Assembly: GCA_022072165.1 (NCBI GenBank)
Contig: JAJVIF010000001.1
Location: 1,553,353-1,617,352, forward strand
DNA: 64,000 nucleotides
Direction: 5' to 3'
DNA from: a bacterium
Lineage (GTDB): Bacteria > JAJVIF01
Shown here: one piece after another, positions 33,778 through 42,010 of the stretch
Layout: every line of letters begins with the position of its first letter
Position numbering within the stretch: the first letter of the stretch is position 1
The notes under the pieces: generated by a model
What the model saw: the letters and a program-made list of their open reading frames with translations, nothing else
Databases searched by the model: none
Told to the model about the DNA's origin: nothing
Position numbers and translations under genes: made by a program

Positions 33778-33830
33778 GAATCTCGCCACCTTAATCAGCA
33801 AAGAGTTATCCGTCTGATTCGCAATGGCAC

Positions 33831-33867
33831 TTGACGTGTGTGTGTGTGTGTGTGTGTGTGTTACTTT
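33831..33867 (+). promoter_or_regulatory. GT-repeat promoter of module copy 1 (spacer 25 bp)
   Basis: TTGACG (33831-33836) is a near-consensus -35. It is followed by a GT microsatellite of 13 units (33836-33861) and the TANNNT element TACTTT (33862-33867). The -35/-10 spacing is 25 bp, far from the optimal 17. The ATG of gene A1 starts 6 nt after the -10, so a transcript would be leaderless. The shared upstream sequence TGGCACTTGACG recurs before module copy 2. The promoter call is inferred; the sequence itself is plain. Confidence 0.6.
33836..33861 (+). repeat. GT dinucleotide microsatellite, 13 units
   Basis: An uninterrupted (GT)13 tract lies immediately upstream of gene A1. Pure dinucleotide tracts this long are rare in GC-rich bacterial DNA and are prone to slipped-strand mispairing. 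It sits between the predicted -35 and -10. Confidence 0.97.
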
Positions 33868-33873
33868 GAGGGC

Positions 33874-34431
33874 ATGGCTACTCCATGGACGAAATCTTTC
33901 TGCACCTTGGCGCTAACTTGCGCTATGTGGGTGGCCATGGGAGCCATGCCCAACATGAGTGCAACAAATGCCAGCCCAATGGCTGGATGGTGTCTCTGCC
34001 ATGGCTGCCTTCTTCATGAGGATCCCGTGCTGTCGTATGAAGTGGATACATGCCCGAACCTGCATATCTTCTGCTGGGGCGTGCCGATTCCAGTACCGAT
34101 CACTGTTTTGTGTACCGTCAGATTTAGAGAGAATATTTACTCCTTTACTGGCTCCGCGCACGAGCAGGACGGTGATTGCCAGGACCAGGGTATGGTGGAG
34201 TGCGGCAAGCTCCACCCACGCCGGTGCAGAGAATTCCTGGGAGTCGACTGCAGTGCAGACATCTCTGTGGAAGTGCTGGATGAACTGATCGGGCTATTCC
34301 CGGGATGCGACCTCCCAGGAAATCTGATACAGATCCGCGAAGCCTGCGAGATTACAGTGCGCCAGCGTTGGGAGGGTCCGCCAGTCTGTTCAGATGCCAT
34401 CGCATGCGACCAGTCGGAGGGCTGCCCCTGA
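33874..34431 (+). CDS. Module gene A1: Cys-rich secreted protein
   Basis: The ATG at 33874 begins a signal peptide of about 35-40 residues, followed by the conserved GWCLCHGC. The 185-residue product has 15 cysteines in the mature part, all matched in position by gene A2 (37362). Other shared blocks are PVPI-x-x-x-C, GDC-x-x-x-G-x-[IV]ECG and the C-terminal AC-x-x-x-EGC. The odd or even disulfide pattern suggests a folded, exported protein. I recognise no family. The frame is also open upstream through the GT tract (coding alternating Val/Cys), but this is probably chance. It is first in the four-gene module. Confidence 0.82.
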   Translation: MATPWTKSFCTLALTCAMWVAMGAMPNMSATNASPMAGWCLCHGCLLHEDPVLSYEVDTCPNLHIFCWGVPIPVPITVLCTVRFRENIYSFTGSAHEQDGDCQDQGMVECGKLHPRRCREFLGVDCSADISVEVLDELIGLFPGCDLPGNLIQIREACEITVRQRWEGPPVCSDAIACDQSEGCP

Positions 34432-35597
34432 TGCGTCGTATTCTCCCACTACTGCAGGCGTCACTCCTGCTGGCCATCCTGTTTCCGACTGGTTGTGGTT
34501 CAGGCCAGCGACAGCCAGCGCCTGCCTCTGCAGAGCGATCTACGGAACTCACAGCAACCGTGGACCGACGGTTTGGTGACTGGGACGGCGAAAAGGAGTG
34601 GCGGAACAGATCAGGACGGGACGATGACCCTGTGGCGGATCTCTTCGCCCGGCGCCTGGAGATAACAGTACCGACCGCCGCTGATGCTGACAGAATCCGG
34701 AGTTGGCAAACGGGGGAGACTGGTCCCTGCATGAAGCAAATCTGGGACAGCCATCGGGGCCTGAGAGAAGCGCTCGAGTTCTATTGCTGGTCTCACGATG
34801 GAGCATGGCCGACGGCGGTACAGGACGTGGCCCCGTACTGCTTTAGCTGGCCAGTGAAGGGACCACGGAGTACAGAGTTGATCCCGCTGGTTGACGCAGA
34901 AACATTTAAGGTCCGAGTCGCTCAGCATGACAAGCTGGTCTTCCCATTAGAGCAGATGCTGGAACTGCAGATGCTGGCCCTCGACCTCACGGAAGATGGC
35001 GCGTCCGTTTACCGGCCGGCCATCGAGACTGGTGGCACCCGCTGTCTGTTCATGGGTGTCCCGGAGGCATGCAGCCGATACCCTGGGTCTACGCCGCGAT
35101 ACCGGCGCGAGTCCATCACCACGCTCGCTTCATTGCCGCCGGACGCTCTCCGGACGAGATTGAGCAAGGCTTTCAACTGGGCACCCCCGGAAGAGATTCG
35201 TGTGGGATTCGCAGCCGACGCGCTGCAGGAGCTGATCCGGTGGGCCTGTCTAAATCTCTGGCGGCCCCCGGAGAACCTGGACGAGATGCTGCAGTTCTCG
35301 GGGCATCAGGTGATCAATTTGGCCGCCGTCCCACCGGAGGAGGCAGACATCCTTGTCGAGTTTGACGGCGAGTCCAGCTACCGGATGACACTTCGCTATA
35401 TGCCCAACCTGGTCGTGCAAAGAATCTATACGATTCACCGGGTGGCTCATCCGCACTTCAGCGCCAGCATCATTGGCCCCACCCGATTTGAAGAGCTTCG
35501 CCCGGAAGCCAGTTTTGTACCGTTTGCCAGCTTCCGCCTCGCGACTCCGTCGGCAGCCGCTATGCCGTATCAGCTCAGCCCGCCAGGAGGATCATAA
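34431..35597 (+). CDS. Module gene B1: lipoprotein of about 390 residues
   Basis: The start overlaps the A1 stop by 1 nt (TGATG), with GGAGGG 9 nt upstream. The lipobox is FPTGC. The 388-residue product is paralogous to B2 (37918). Shared segments are LREALE/IREALG, a Phe/Trp strand before PV-K-G-P or PARAPG, the helix ending PP-x-[ES]L-x-E, SGH-x-[VL]-x-NL and the strongest block VEFDGE-[AS]SY-x-x-TLRY. No known family is recognised and no transmembrane segment other than the signal is seen. It probably anchors or chaperones the co-encoded A protein at the envelope, an inference from pairing only. Confidence 0.82.
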   Translation: MRRILPLLQASLLLAILFPTGCGSGQRQPAPASAERSTELTATVDRRFGDWDGEKEWRNRSGRDDDPVADLFARRLEITVPTAADADRIRSWQTGETGPCMKQIWDSHRGLREALEFYCWSHDGAWPTAVQDVAPYCFSWPVKGPRSTELIPLVDAETFKVRVAQHDKLVFPLEQMLELQMLALDLTEDGASVYRPAIETGGTRCLFMGVPEACSRYPGSTPRYRRESITTLASLPPDALRTRLSKAFNWAPPEEIRVGFAADALQELIRWACLNLWRPPENLDEMLQFSGHQVINLAAVPPEEADILVEFDGESSYRMTLRYMPNLVVQRIYTIHRVAHPHFSASIIGPTRFEELRPEASFVPFASFRLATPSAAAMPYQLSPPGGS

Positions 35598-35605
35598 ACT
35601 TTGCC

Positions 35606-36172
35606 ATGCAAACACCTGCTTCACAGTTTTCATCACGGGTCATGCCCTGGTTCCGTGGAGCCATGACTTCGCTTGTCTTACTCTCCATCGCCGCTGCTCC
35701 TCCAGTGGTGCAAGCAGAACCCTGCGACAAGGCTTGCTGTCTGGCCGTTGCGGTGAATGAAGGTGTATGGACCATCACCCTTCCATACTACTACTGTCAT
35801 TGCGAAGGTGGGATTCCCCACACCTATGTGGCATTTCTGGAGGAGGTGACGTATCACTTTGATGTGCGGAGCTGGACCTATGCCTGCGGGGAGGAGTGGG
35901 AATGTACGCAGGTCTCCACATATCCTGAGGCGGTCATCTATTGCGGGGAGATTGAACAGATGCTGCACCCTCGCATCGGACCTGACTGGATTCGTGCCGA
36001 GGGGCCAAAGAATCAGACCATCTGTGAGCAATGCTATATCCCAGGGGTCTGCTTCCCAAGTGGGCCTGCCTGGGCTGACTTACCTCACATGTGCGGCATC
36101 TGTGTCTGTGACGACCCCTGCCATTGCCATGTTGAATGGCTCACACCGCTCATCTACTGCCCCGCTCGATGA
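35606..36172 (+). CDS. Module gene C1: Cys-rich secreted protein
   Basis: A signal peptide ends near VVQAEP. The 188-residue protein has 17 mature cysteines, all conserved in C2 (39095). Landmarks are CDKACCLAV, the aromatic YYYCHC, ACGEEWECTQVST, CEQCYIP and MCGICVCDDPCHCHVEW. The clustered Cys/His near the end could bind metal or form several disulfides. No family is recognised. Two stretches of 41 and 54 bp are identical at the DNA level to C2. The ATG at 35606 has a weak, distant SD (GGAGG about 15 nt upstream). Confidence 0.83.
   Translation: MQTPASQFSSRVMPWFRGAMTSLVLLSIAAAPPVVQAEPCDKACCLAVAVNEGVWTITLPYYYCHCEGGIPHTYVAFLEEVTYHFDVRSWTYACGEEWECTQVSTYPEAVIYCGEIEQMLHPRIGPDWIRAEGPKNQTICEQCYIPGVCFPSGPAWADLPHMCGICVCDDPCHCHVEWLTPLIYCPAR
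35876..35916 (+). repeat. 41-bp identity block shared by genes C1 and C2
   Basis: These 41 bp are identical to 39383-39423. They encode ACGEEWECTQVS in both paralogues, although the surrounding sequence has diverged strongly. Confidence 0.95.
36089..36142 (+). repeat. 54-bp identity block shared by genes C1 and C2
   Basis: These 54 bp are identical to 39596-39649 and encode MCGICVCDDPCHCHVEWL. Silent positions are identical too, which is more than protein-level selection requires. Confidence 0.95.
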
Positions 36173-36189
36173 CACCTGGAGGTGTTCCG

Positions 36190-37197
36190 ATGCTTCTACA
36201 CTTCGCAAGTCGTATCCATCCATTACTCAGGACCGTTATTTACATGGCCTTTCTCGGCTTTCTGTCATTGCTCGGCTGCCCCCGGAATTCGCCTGAGAAC
36301 TCCCCTGCTGCCCTGGACCCAGCAGCTGCCCGGCAGACGGCTGGGTTCCCGGCGACCGTAAAGCTCGGTGATCGTGATGTTGAGCTGCGGTCGACCAGTA
36401 GTCCGGAACTGCGACAACTCAACCGAGTCGCAAAAGCGCTGGCGACTGCGGTCTCCTGGGGCGCGAAACAGGACGCTACCGTCTTCACGGACTGGTTTCA
36501 GCAACCCGCACCAGAACTGTCCGCTCCGTTGCCCGTCATCTGGGTGGATCCGCCGGGGCATCCGGTGCCGATGACACAGGATCGGTCGGTGCCGCGGCGG
36601 ATCTGGCCCTCTTTCAAGGATGGCACGTTGCAGATCCTGACGCTGACCACGCCGGAGGCAAAGACTGCCCGAGGCCTTCAGGCTATCGATCCGGAGCGCC
36701 GGAGCACCCCGCTTCCGCCGCTGCCTGACGGCAGAATCATCCCTACACTGGATCCCTGTGCGCCGCTGCCCCCCGCCGGGCGGCTCCCACTGGGGATCGT
36801 GGCTGCTCTGGCCGAGCTGCATCACATGGCCCAGTATGAGCCGGGGAAACTCCGCTCCGAACTGGAACTCATGGTCCCGCCACAGACCCAGGCCCTCCTG
36901 GCGCAGGAACTGGGACCTATTCGCCTGCTCATGTGTCGTGCCCGGGGAATGGCTGCCCTCGCCTTCACCTATCAGGGAGAGTCTTACGCGGCCCTGGCAA
37001 TCCAGCAACGCTGGTCCATGGGACATACCGGGGAGCACTACACATTTGGGCATGTCACCAACGAGCCACCGGAATTGATGGCGAGGTCGGTCATGATCGA
37101 GATGCTGGATTCCCAGAAGCTGCGTCCGGGCGGCATGTACGACTTCGCGAACCAGGCGCTCTGGGAGGAGGTCTCGGTCGGCCTGGGCGACCTGTGA
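36190..37197 (+). CDS. Module gene D1: lipoprotein of about 335 residues
   Basis: ATG at 36190 has GGAGGT 6-7 nt upstream. The lipobox is SLLGC. The product is paralogous to D2 (39695): both have ALA-x-A-[VI]SWGA, a short helix with PEL-[SQ]A-x-LPV, D-x-x-G-x-x-VP, then I-x-x-[SA]FKDG and a later LPLGI/IPLGI-[VA]-x-AL motif. The middle is Pro-rich. No known family is recognised. It may be the partner of C1, as B is of A. Confidence 0.82.
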   Translation: MLLHFASRIHPLLRTVIYMAFLGFLSLLGCPRNSPENSPAALDPAAARQTAGFPATVKLGDRDVELRSTSSPELRQLNRVAKALATAVSWGAKQDATVFTDWFQQPAPELSAPLPVIWVDPPGHPVPMTQDRSVPRRIWPSFKDGTLQILTLTTPEAKTARGLQAIDPERRSTPLPPLPDGRIIPTLDPCAPLPPAGRLPLGIVAALAELHHMAQYEPGKLRSELELMVPPQTQALLAQELGPIRLLMCRARGMAALAFTYQGESYAALAIQQRWSMGHTGEHYTFGHVTNEPPELMARSVMIEMLDSQKLRPGGMYDFANQALWEEVSVGLGDL

Positions 37198-37325
37198 GCG
37201 CACCTGCCTGCGGAGAAAACCATTCCAATCCGCCTGAAGTGTGATGCACTCATGGCTCTGTGCTGGTGCTGCGAGGTCATGCCGCATCTATCATCAATGA
37301 GGTTTCATCATTTTGCTGCTGGCAC

Positions 37326-37354
37326 TTGACGTGTGTGTGTGTGTGTGTTAGCGT
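37326..37354 (+). promoter_or_regulatory. GT-repeat promoter of module copy 2 (spacer 17 bp)
   Basis: TTGACG (37326-37331) is followed by nine GT units and TAGCGT (37349-37354), a TANNNT -10. The spacing is exactly 17 bp, the sigma-70 optimum. The ATG of A2 lies 7 nt after the -10, again predicting a leaderless mRNA. Compared with copy 1, only the GT count changes the geometry, so this copy is predicted to be on and copy 1 off or weak. Confidence 0.65.
37331..37348 (+). repeat. GT dinucleotide microsatellite, 9 units
   Basis: An uninterrupted (GT)9 tract in the same position as the (GT)13 tract of module copy 1, immediately upstream of gene A2. Confidence 0.97.
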
Positions 37355-37361
37355 ATTTGCT

Positions 37362-37913
37362 ATGATTCTCCGACCGTTGCAGGCTCTGCTGGCATTAAGC
37401 ATTCTGCTAGCAAGCCTACTCTGCGTGAACACCGTCAGATCAGAGGAAGGCGACCCACCTTCAACAGATGTACCCGGTTGGTGTTTTTGCCGGGGCTGTG
37501 AACTCGATTTTTTGGAGCTTCAGCTTGCGGAGCAGGAGACTTGTGGAGGCCTGATGGTGATCTGTGCCAGTGGTCCTGTCCCTGTGCCATTTCCAATCGA
37601 TTGTCTGATAACTTATGACGCCAAGATTTTTACACTCGGAGCAGCCGCTGCAGAACCCGAGCCTGGAGACTGCGATGAGCTCGGCTTAATTGAGTGCGGC
37701 GCATCACATGTCGAACTGTGCAAAACTTTCCGGGGTGCGATGTGCTCCGCAGCAGCTTGGGCGGTGTTTCTCGACGAGTTTAACTTCACCTGCGGCATCC
37801 CGTATCAACTCGAAATCTTTGAGTATTTATGTCGGGAAGAAATCAGGCAAACGCTGGAAGGACAGATCATTTGCACAGGCACTGTCTCCTGCGACGCCAC
37901 GGAGGGTTGCTGA
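37362..37913 (+). CDS. Module gene A2: Cys-rich secreted protein
   Basis: The 183-residue protein starts with a clean signal peptide (MILRPLQALLALSILLASLL), then GWCFCRGC. All 15 mature cysteines align with those of A1, while the residues between differ widely, as expected for a surface or secreted protein under diversifying selection. Shared blocks include PVPFPIDC, GDCDELGLIECG and SCDATEGC. No family is recognised. It is followed 4 nt later by B2. Confidence 0.83.
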   Translation: MILRPLQALLALSILLASLLCVNTVRSEEGDPPSTDVPGWCFCRGCELDFLELQLAEQETCGGLMVICASGPVPVPFPIDCLITYDAKIFTLGAAAAEPEPGDCDELGLIECGASHVELCKTFRGAMCSAAAWAVFLDEFNFTCGIPYQLEIFEYLCREEIRQTLEGQIICTGTVSCDATEGC

Positions 37914-37917
37914 ACCA

Positions 37918-39105
37918 ATGAAGGGCGGCATCAGATTCGTACTGATAACCGGGTTACTGCTTGCTCCAGGATGCGCCAGTAAAGCTGCGCGCCCAGCAGC
38001 ACCGGGACAGGTGTCCCCAGCCACAACTATCAGGAGGCCAGCGACTGATGGAGAGTCGGCAAGTCAAAAACAGGGAACCAGTATTGAAGAGGCAAAGGCC
38101 CTGGTTGCGGAAGGCAGACCCCTTGAAATCTTTTCTCCCACTCCCGCACAACGAATCGAGATCGAGGGCTGGATCGCTGGCGACCTGGCGACCTGCTGGC
38201 CCAAGATGTGGAAGTCTCCATTTGACATACGGGAAGCGCTGGGGCGATACGAGCGATACCGGGGAGAGCCTCCGCCGGATATGTTACTGACCGGCCTGGC
38301 ACCGTTTGTCTTCGCCTGGCCAGCCCGCGCCCCAGGGAGTAGTGAACCAATCCCACTTATCCATCCGGTAGACGCTGCCAAGTGGCAAGCCTGGACTCAG
38401 CGCGCTCAACTAACGCAAGAGGAGATGCTGGATGCTCAGGCATTCGCCCTGGAGCTGGACCAGGACTCGAGGCGTCTGACGGTACCTTTTCGCCAGCGAG
38501 CCCTGATCGAGACGTACGGCTTTATAACAATCCCGCTGACAGACTCACCTGTCCGTGCGCAAGTTAAATACCAGCCCCGATCATCGATGCAAGAGGCCCT
38601 TCCCCGCCTCGAACGGATGCGTGATCATCGTCGCTGGGGCGAGCTCAACGATGTCGAGTCATGGCTGATACCGGATGAACTCCGTCTCTATCTTGCGGCG
38701 TCAGACATCATGAATCTCATCAGAGTAGCGACGGTGAACAGCTGGCAAGTACCAGGATCGCTCAGCGAGCTGGAGCGCTATTCAGGCCATGTGCTGCTGA
38801 ATCTTGAACCCATCGATGCTCAGCACGCCGATTTGGTCGTGGAGTTTGATGGTGAAGCCAGCTATCTGTTTACGCTCCGTTACCCGGCAGGTGTGACGCA
38901 TACCATCCAGTACCAGATCAACCGCCTTGCCTGGCCTGAGTGGCTTTCCTCCAAGCTGGATCCTACAGGCAACAACAACAAGTATCAGGGCAAGAACTAC
39001 AAGCCCTTCGCGGCGTTTCACCTGACTTCATCCTCCGATGCTCAACTTCCTGTCAGGCGGATAACTGCAAGCCACAAGCACGAAGGAGCGACCGATGAAG
39101 AGTGA
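37918..39105 (+). CDS. Module gene B2: lipoprotein of about 395 residues
   Basis: The lipobox is LAPGC. GGAGGG lies about 13 nt before the ATG at 37918. The 395-residue product aligns with B1 over the helix-rich middle and the terminal block VEFDGEASYLFTLRY. After the lipobox comes an unrelated Ser/Ala/Thr-rich linker, which suggests a tether between lipid anchor and folded domain. No family is recognised. Confidence 0.82.
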   Translation: MKGGIRFVLITGLLLAPGCASKAARPAAPGQVSPATTIRRPATDGESASQKQGTSIEEAKALVAEGRPLEIFSPTPAQRIEIEGWIAGDLATCWPKMWKSPFDIREALGRYERYRGEPPPDMLLTGLAPFVFAWPARAPGSSEPIPLIHPVDAAKWQAWTQRAQLTQEEMLDAQAFALELDQDSRRLTVPFRQRALIETYGFITIPLTDSPVRAQVKYQPRSSMQEALPRLERMRDHRRWGELNDVESWLIPDELRLYLAASDIMNLIRVATVNSWQVPGSLSELERYSGHVLLNLEPIDAQHADLVVEFDGEASYLFTLRYPAGVTHTIQYQINRLAWPEWLSSKLDPTGNNNKYQGKNYKPFAAFHLTSSSDAQLPVRRITASHKHEGATDEE

Positions 39106-39679
39106 TAACCAGCCGGTCTTTCTGGCTGTACATCTTAGACGGCTGATCCCGGCTGTCGCGAGCTTGGGGCTAGCTTTGCTGATCCTGGCACTGCCCAGCA
39201 TCGCGCCTGATGTCGCGGCTGAGGAAGATTGTGACAAGCACTGCTGCCTCGCCGCAGGAGTCGTCGACAGCGTCTGGCGGTTCGAGATGGACTACTACCA
39301 GTGCTGGTGCATAAATAATGAGCCCATGGGGGAGACCAGTTTCAGGAGGAGGGTCGCATTTGAGTTTGACGTGTTTTCCTACACCTATGCCTGCGGGGAG
39401 GAGTGGGAATGTACGCAGGTCTCTACCGACCCCAAAGCAACCATTCGCTGCGGCGATACAGAGCAGATGCTGTTTCCCCGGTTAGGGGAGAACTGGCGGC
39501 GCGCTTATGGGCCCAAGAGCCAGGCGATCTGCGAAGAGTGTTACATCCCAGGGCAGTGCTTTCCGCTGATGCCTAACTGGGCCGATCTGCCCAAAATGTG
39601 CGGCATCTGTGTCTGTGACGACCCCTGCCATTGCCATGTTGAATGGCTCTCGCCTCTGGTCGATTGTTCCCTCAAGTAG
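39095..39679 (+). CDS. Module gene C2: Cys-rich secreted protein
   Basis: The start overlaps the B2 end by 11 bp, with AGGAG 6 nt upstream. A signal peptide ends near DVAAEE. The 194-residue protein keeps all 17 cysteines of C1: CDKHCCLAA, YYQCWC, ACGEEWECTQVST, CEECYIP, MCGICVCDDPCHCHVEW. Parts of the gene are identical to C1 at DNA level, suggesting recent gene conversion. No family is recognised. Confidence 0.83.
   Translation: MKSDNQPVFLAVHLRRLIPAVASLGLALLILALPSIAPDVAAEEDCDKHCCLAAGVVDSVWRFEMDYYQCWCINNEPMGETSFRRRVAFEFDVFSYTYACGEEWECTQVSTDPKATIRCGDTEQMLFPRLGENWRRAYGPKSQAICEECYIPGQCFPLMPNWADLPKMCGICVCDDPCHCHVEWLSPLVDCSLK
39383..39423 (+). repeat. Second copy of the 41-bp identity block
   Basis: Identical to 35876-35916 in gene C1. 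Confidence 0.95.
39596..39649 (+). repeat. Second copy of the 54-bp identity block
   Basis: Identical to 36089-36142 in gene C1. Confidence 0.95.
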
Positions 39680-40745: not shown

Positions 40746-41768
40746 TTGCCGTGCCAACGATCACGAGGAGGCGCCATCCTTCAACGGCACCCCTACGAGG
40801 ACCTGAGAGTCTGGCAGAACGCTATCGGGTTCCTCGAGATGATCTTTCACGAGACGGCGGATTTTCCGCCGGACGAGCGGCAGGAGTTAGGACGTCGCCT
40901 GCGGGATGCCGCCATTGACTGGATCAACGATCTGTCGATGGCGCACAGCAAGTCGCAGGACGAGTTTGTCGGGTTACTGAAGTCGTACCACCTCTATCGC
41001 ACCCGTCTCATCATCCTCCTGAAGCTGGGCTTTCGCGTCGGCCTGATCAAGGCCAACAGCTACGCTGAGCTTGAAGGGGATTTGATGGAGCAGGAGAAGG
41101 TAGTGGCTCATCAGATCGACCTGCTGGAGAGCGGCCGGGGGATGCACACGGGTGCCCTGACCAGTCGCTCGGCAGCACGGTCATTGCAGGTCGCCGATCG
41201 CGACCGCCGGACCAGTGGTGGCCGGGGTCGTGAGGATCGCGACACTGGTCGCGGCAGTCGCGAGGAGCGCCCCTGGGGGCGTGATGACCGGGAAGAGCGC
41301 TTCGAGCGTGAGCCCCGGTCCGGTCGTGAAGCCGCCGTTGCGCCTGCGCGCAGCCGTTCGCGGGTGGAAGAAGAGCCGGCCGCGCCGGCGAGTCGGTCCG
41401 GACGCCGCATGTCGTCCCGGGACTACGACGATGCCCCGGCTGTCGCCGCCGAGGAACTGGCACCGACGCGCTCCACGGGCCGTCGCGCCAGCACCCGGGC
41501 CACGGCAGAAGAGCCGGTGGAAGCCCCCCGCACTGCCACACGTCGCGCCAGCAGCCGGTCCGCCGAGCCTGCAGCGCCTGCGGTCCCGAGTCGCCGGGTG
41601 TCTACCCGGGATGAGGACTATGACGACGATGCTCCGCCTCCCTCCCGGTCCGCCCGGAGCGAGGAGAGCGAAGCGACGCCGGTCCGACGCCGCCGTCGCG
41701 CCGCCGTCGCGGAAGTAGTCGCCCCGGAAGCTCCGGTGGCCGCCCCCAGCCGCACCCGTCGCCGCTAA
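40746..41768 (+). CDS. 23S rRNA IVP-like four-helix bundle protein with Arg/Ser-rich tail
   Basis: Residues about 16-130 match the 23S rRNA intervening-sequence protein family: YEDLRVWQNAI, FPPDERQELGRRLRDAAIDW and later FVGLLKSYHLYRTRLIILLKLG form four amphipathic helices. The remaining 200 residues are a low-complexity Arg/Ser/Ala/Glu tail (RGREDRDTGRGSREER and RRRRRAAVAEVV), unusual for the family. The start is uncertain: TTG at 40746 has no SD, whereas AGGAGG (40766-40771) lies 4 nt before an ATC codon at 40776, a possible rare start. A GC-rich terminator follows. IVP proteins' role is not well known; the tail suggests nucleic-acid binding. Confidence 0.7.
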   Translation: MPCQRSRGGAILQRHPYEDLRVWQNAIGFLEMIFHETADFPPDERQELGRRLRDAAIDWINDLSMAHSKSQDEFVGLLKSYHLYRTRLIILLKLGFRVGLIKANSYAELEGDLMEQEKVVAHQIDLLESGRGMHTGALTSRSAARSLQVADRDRRTSGGRGREDRDTGRGSREERPWGRDDREERFEREPRSGREAAVAPARSRSRVEEEPAAPASRSGRRMSSRDYDDAPAVAAEELAPTRSTGRRASTRATAEEPVEAPRTATRRASSRSAEPAAPAVPSRRVSTRDEDYDDDAPPPSRSARSEESEATPVRRRRRAAVAEVVAPEAPVAAPSRTRRR

Positions 41769-41860: not shown

Positions 41861-42010
41861 CCGGAGCCCAGGTCTTGAGACCTGGTCGCGTGATCAATCT
41901 CCACGTTCCAAGTCTGAAGACTTGGGGTCCGCTGCGACCCGGAGCCTAGGTCTTGAGACCTGGTTGCGTGATGAATCTGCACGGCACAAGTCTGAAGACT
42001 TGTGGTCCGC
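41861..42010. repeat. Two tandem 72-bp repeats, each with two hairpins
   Basis: Units at 41861-41932 and 41939-42010 align without gaps (period 78 bp). Each contains two near-perfect palindromes with 8-bp arms and 2-nt centres, one around TCTTGAGA and one around TCTGAAGA. In the second palindrome an outer pair changes from C-G in unit 1 to A-T in unit 2, preserving pairing. It lies in the 346-bp gap between the IVP-like gene and the J-domain gene; no gene is seen in that gap. Confidence 0.85.

Follow-up and report, generated by a model that had tools for sequence, protein, structure and literature searches.

The two GT microsatellites found in the window, which is the whole 64-kb stretch of DNA analyzed here, probably belong to a multi-locus phase-variation system comparable to hif of Haemophilus, in which repeats in promoter spacers would switch orphan gene families of an uncultured lineage. 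The two tracts were the only dinucleotide arrays detected in the window by Tandem Repeats Finder, and each lies between a -35 and a -10 hexamer, as in the hif promoters:

33825-33836, + strand: shared box TGGCACTTGACG of copy 1, containing the -35 hexamer TTGACG (33831-33836)
33836-33861, + strand: (GT)13 microsatellite of copy 1, occupying the -35/-10 spacer, spacing 25 bp
33862-33867, + strand: -10 hexamer TACTTT of copy 1, 6 nt before the ATG at 33874, leaderless layout
37320-37331, + strand: shared box TGGCACTTGACG of copy 2, containing the -35 hexamer TTGACG (37326-37331)
37331-37348, + strand: (GT)9 microsatellite of copy 2, occupying the spacer, spacing 17 bp
37349-37354, + strand: -10 hexamer TAGCGT of copy 2, 7 nt before the ATG at 37362

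This layout agrees exactly with the original prediction, which had described a common box, (GT)13 or (GT)9, a TANNNT -10 and an ATG 6-7 nt further on, with spacings of 25 bp at copy 1 and 17 bp at copy 2. The sequence CACTTGACGTGTGTG has exactly two occurrences in the genome. Under a dinucleotide model of the 3.26-Mb genome, the expected counts were 5e-5 for (GT)9 and 6e-10 for (GT)13, and the presence of the two tracts is therefore not attributable to chance. Both -10 hexamers are weak, with three of six matches to TATAAT. A sigma54 reading of the TGGCAC motif was rejected on inspection, as the -12 position lacks GC.

Read from a GTG inside the tract, the A1 frame contains no stop (ORF 33838-34431), as would be expected of a translational switch, where the gene would begin within the repeat and slippage would shift the frame. 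However, an in-frame TGA just upstream blocks an earlier start at copy 1, the signal peptides start at the ATG, and most of the CT and AG loci described below make no coding sense, with the gene start located 15-60 nt further on. The reading of the tract as coding sequence was rejected on these three grounds, and a translational switch is considered highly unlikely.

Each promoter is followed by four genes, which are listed below in the order of the two modules, with the products named by their predicted export or lipoprotein status:

33874-34431, + strand: A1, exported cysteine-rich protein of 185 aa with 17 Cys, no Pfam match
34431-35597, + strand: B1, lipoprotein of 388 aa, no Pfam match
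35606-36172, + strand: C1, exported cysteine-rich protein of 188 aa with 17 Cys
36190-37197, + strand: D1, lipoprotein of 335 aa
37362-37913, + strand: A2, exported cysteine-rich protein of 183 aa with 16 Cys, 33% identity to A1
37918-39105, + strand: B2, lipoprotein of 395 aa, 32% identity to B1
39095-39679, + strand: C2, exported cysteine-rich protein of 194 aa, about 60% identity to C1
39695-40675, + strand: D2, lipoprotein of 326 aa, 34% identity to D1

Module 2 is a diverged duplicate of module 1, with protein identities of 32-61% across the four genes. The 12-bp box and the GT tract were retained in both copies, while the A, B, and D proteins diverged to about one third identity. None of the eight module proteins scored above a Pfam family cut-off. 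Relatives of the A proteins were not found outside the source genome among 40 genomes, and no relative of the C proteins was confirmed among 84,980 species in a pattern-based search that reaches mainly close relatives; three other genomes of the same phylum contained no homologues of A or C. Structure prediction from two-row alignments yielded no usable fold (pLDDT 35 for C2/C1 and 37 for B2/B1).

Directly after module 2, the window includes a gene (40746-41768) with an N-terminal domain resembling the four-helix 23S rRNA intervening-sequence protein, a weak match below the cut-off; its tail is long and rich in Arg and Ala. At 41861-42010, the window also contains a 78-bp tandem pair of REP-like palindromes (CCRGGTCTTNAGACCYGG type), and further palindromes of this type were observed in sampled stretches L073 (15546 and 15769), L076 (8154), L077 (17886), and L078 (3885). 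The sequence GTCTNNAGAC of these palindromes was enriched, with 12 occurrences against 4 for the control in 464 kb.

The design of the window promoters recurred across the genome. An unbiased census, covering dinucleotide repeats of the GA/CT and GT/AC types with at least six units, identified 11 tracts in the whole genome. Nine of these start 0-2 nt after a TTGAC, for which the chance is about 6e-22 given the measured TTGAC frequency:

C1:1545071, AG
C1:1587188, GT, window copy 1
C1:1590683, GT, window copy 2
C2:53936, AG
C2:315493, CT
C2:427664, TC
C2:551968, AG
C3:163548, AG
C4:125757, AG

Beyond the window pair, at least seven more operons share the design with GA or CT repeats, and the genome carries several independent loci at which repeats are over-represented, as in known phasomes. 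A -10-like hexamer is located 3' of most of these tracts, with the operon next. With the best -10 at each locus, the spacings were 15, 16, 17, 17, 17, 19, 19, 21, and 25 bp, where the -10 assignment is uncertain at the AG loci C2:53936, C3:163548, and C1:1545071. The pattern TGTGTGTG-N(0,1)-TANNNT had five matches in the genome, against none for the reversed pattern. Other TTGAC promoters included a shorter GT tract at C3:238718 and homopolymers (A8, A9, and T8) at three loci. The two exceptions in the census were C4:114772, where a (GT)10 adjoins TAAGAT without a TTGAC, and C2:574800, where a GT tract lies outside any recognizable promoter. The latter tract, together with the tolerance of intergenic DNA for repeats, is what might be expected of neutral microsatellites. 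Against this, nine of the 11 tracts adjoin TTGAC and long tracts are unexpected from composition; the association with TTGAC therefore refutes neutrality for the set as a whole, and this explanation retains hardly any credibility. Convincing spacer microsatellites were not found in three other genomes of the phylum, which are distant and fragmented. A separate G12 run immediately precedes a CATAAT in front of what appears to be a pyruvate kinase gene (C2:241852, - strand, stretch L086), so that a promoter in central metabolism may be prone to slippage.

In a whole-genome scan for CTTGAC-N(11-30)-TANNNT, promoters without a microsatellite had a spacing of 16-18 bp in 35 of 62 cases with a peak at 17 bp, which places the organism's own optimum near the spacing of copy 2 (17 bp), with copy 1 at 25 bp. 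A 17-bp optimum is the expectation for the housekeeping sigma factor. Unexpectedly, the scan also returned several further promoters with a dinucleotide repeat as spacer. Of 268 genes, 32 have a TANNNT whose end lies 6-9 nt ahead of the first ATG, compared with about one per position elsewhere. The -10 hexamers of the window copies, ending 6 and 7 nt before the start codon, lie at the distance of about 6-8 nt typical of leaderless promoters and fit a leaderless class that is common in this genome. Leaderless promoters with a TANNNT adjoining the ORF have been described (PMC3898074, PMC12340547); like those of the window, their -10 ends 6-8 nt before the ATG, but they are defined without a spacer repeat.

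The genes behind the tracts are of a recurring kind. The leading genes are predicted to encode small exported cysteine-rich proteins, and next in the operon is a gene for a lipoprotein, about 310-450 aa long; signal peptides and lipoboxes in the leading genes were judged by eye, and Pfam matches were uninformative. Two groups of lipoproteins without mutual similarity in BLAST are involved, and the operons are not homologous throughout. One lipoprotein family has six members in the genome; the promoters of four bear a dinucleotide tract, in three cases as a TTGAC spacer and in the fourth at C4:114772, and those of the other two do not. Among the other leading genes and lipoproteins tested, none exceeded a Pfam cut-off except for PKD domains in one lipoprotein. 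A pair of PKD-domain lipoproteins of about 600 aa and 82% identity was observed in stretch L088 (C1 ~1.827-1.833 Mb), the first of which has an A9 run in its promoter spacer.

In a 464-kb sample, more leading cysteine-rich genes were found with tandem repeats of 10-12 bp downstream of an ordinary promoter, as well as one without a repeat. The repeat-bearing operons were the following:

L063, - strand, 11347 (C1 ~811 kb)
L069, - strand, 16546 (C1 ~1716 kb)
L075, + strand, 9550 (C4 ~59 kb)
L101, ~4195 (C1 ~1389 kb; the C1:1389783 operon)

Their repeats, CAGCGGCTACCT, CAGGTAACGG, GTTACCCGCT, and TGCATCCTCC, lie just 3' of promoters of the TTGAC-N17 type and possibly represent a second class of variable leader. 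Start-proximal repeats thus seem to be a habit of the cysteine-rich/lipoprotein class, and microsatellites in the spacer were encountered more often than any other form.

As the operons behind the tracts are functionally coherent, and an AT-rich block is present about 14-16 nt upstream of the TTGAC, the tracts could be viewed as binding sites of a GAGA/GT-type regulator that co-regulates the cysteine-rich/lipoprotein operons. However, three different dinucleotides are in use, and other family members either lack a tract or carry the 10-12 bp repeats in a different placement, which makes this explanation very unlikely. Both a regulator site and a structural spacer call for a constant sequence or length. 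Here the motif and the spacing (15-25 bp) vary while the position is constant, which favors selection on slippage over a binding site. Three observations point to such selection: perfect repeats of different motifs occupy one position in non-homologous operons, their lengths differ between loci, and the other promoters group around 17 bp.

In the proposed mechanism, both GT tracts would be spacers of sigma70-type promoters that act as switches through slipped-strand mispairing. Replication slippage would add or remove GT units in 2-bp steps, shifting the spacing toward or away from the 17-bp optimum and thereby altering how strongly each A-B-C-D operon is transcribed. With the -10 so close to the ATG, the mRNA would probably be leaderless and the switch purely transcriptional. 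By a 16-18 bp rule, C1:1590683 (copy 2), C2:315493, C2:551968, and perhaps C2:53936 are predicted to be near the optimum, whereas large deviations are predicted for C1:1587188 (copy 1), at 25 bp, and for C2:427664, at 21 bp. The slippage switch of the original prediction is strongly supported by the recurrence of the design in the genome and in other phyla and by the 17-bp optimum, while the states it assigned, copy 2 on and copy 1 off, stand as a prediction that depends on a strict need for 17 bp.

Whatever its length, the GT tract places a TGn in front of the hexamer and so supplies an extended -10. Switching could therefore be less than all-or-none, and copy 1 may retain weak activity instead of being silent. 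TGTGT immediately adjoins both window -10 hexamers on the 5' side, an arrangement also seen in extended -10 promoters. This would also suit a fixed structural spacer, in which GT sets promoter strength through the TGn or through flexible or Z-prone DNA, without meaningful slippage. The CT and AG tracts elsewhere, however, give neither TGn nor a common structure, the lengths are not conserved, and a fixed element has no need of perfect repeats; this explanation is regarded as improbable, although less so than the other alternatives.

Promoters of the same design were also found in other phyla. A scan of 84,980 species for TTGAC-N(0,2)-(GW)8-N(0,10)-TANNNT returned 30 stretches, some of which are expected by chance, and about 27 of the 30 were near-pure GA or GT tracts. 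The phyla included Saccharibacteria, Zixibacteria, Chloroflexota, Spirochaetes, Firmicutes, Planctomycetota, Acidobacteria, and Actinobacteria, and many of the proteins 3' of the matches had apparent signal peptides. A broader pattern had 42 matches, against none for the reversed pattern, in the source genome and 24 matched genomes; the latter were picked for having a match, the reversed control covers these re-searched genomes, and five loci outside the source genome were new relative to the first scan. Where the -10 position was not forced by the pattern, it leaned to TATAAT (8 of 31 exact), with several hosts being AT-rich. The Pirellulaceae isolate M30B19 (L108, L124) contains two near-identical GT spacer promoters, TTGACYTGTG...TATAAT, with a spacing of 20 bp, one of which precedes a cysteine-containing reading frame.

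In the SSR phasomes known from Neisseria, Campylobacter, and Haemophilus, most of the repeats lie within coding sequences, whereas the dinucleotide set of this genome sits in promoter spacers. Such contingency loci comprise many independent repeat switches per genome that act on surface or exported genes (PMC5953494, PMC6321876, PMC2651432), as is proposed for the present set. The closest design is the bidirectional hifA/hifB promoter of Haemophilus influenzae, with (TA)9-11 in its spacer (PMC2651432, PMC3899988). In both, a dinucleotide repeat separates the -35 from the -10; as in hif, the promoters here would change in 2-bp steps, carry a single switch per promoter region, and serve structures that are predicted to be exported. 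In contrast to hif, the promoters of this genome use GT, CT, and AG instead of TA, are unidirectional, are leaderless at some loci, occur at no fewer than nine loci in one genome, and target orphan cysteine-rich proteins and lipoproteins instead of pili. Similarly, the poly-G spacer of the Neisseria meningitidis porA promoter (PMC3899988) sets the spacer length for an exported protein, but as a mononucleotide with 1-bp steps, a graded effect, and a single locus, while the tracts here are mostly dinucleotides, with homopolymers at three loci. A genome-wide set of GT, GA, or CT spacer promoters was not found described in the open-access literature.

The window pair would thus be part of a set of at least nine promoters using GT, CT, and AG, with homopolymer variants at further loci, each of which would drive an operon for a fast-diverging exported cysteine-rich protein and a lipoprotein. 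This suggests that the bacterium randomly raises and lowers a whole set of these proteins, giving cells with independently varying surface or secreted protein repertoires; slippage in nature, the on/off states, and a surface function are what we infer from the DNA. It is about as likely as not that the spacers of orphan operons acquired microsatellites with several different motifs independently, and their 5' leaders 10-12 bp repeats, as a convergent genome-wide phase-variation system whose spacer design arose repeatedly across many phyla; if so, transcriptional slippage switches would be far commoner outside pathogens than recognized. Most known cases of spacer-length phase variation concern single promoters in host-associated pathogens, while in the present genome, from a sparsely sampled phylum, nine or more loci appear to use it, with no fewer than three repeat motifs and in gene families without known relatives. 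Promoter-spacer slippage thereby becomes testable as a widespread bet-hedging device in uncultured bacteria. The variability of the exported proteins would also provide a first functional clue for the orphan cysteine-rich protein/lipoprotein family.
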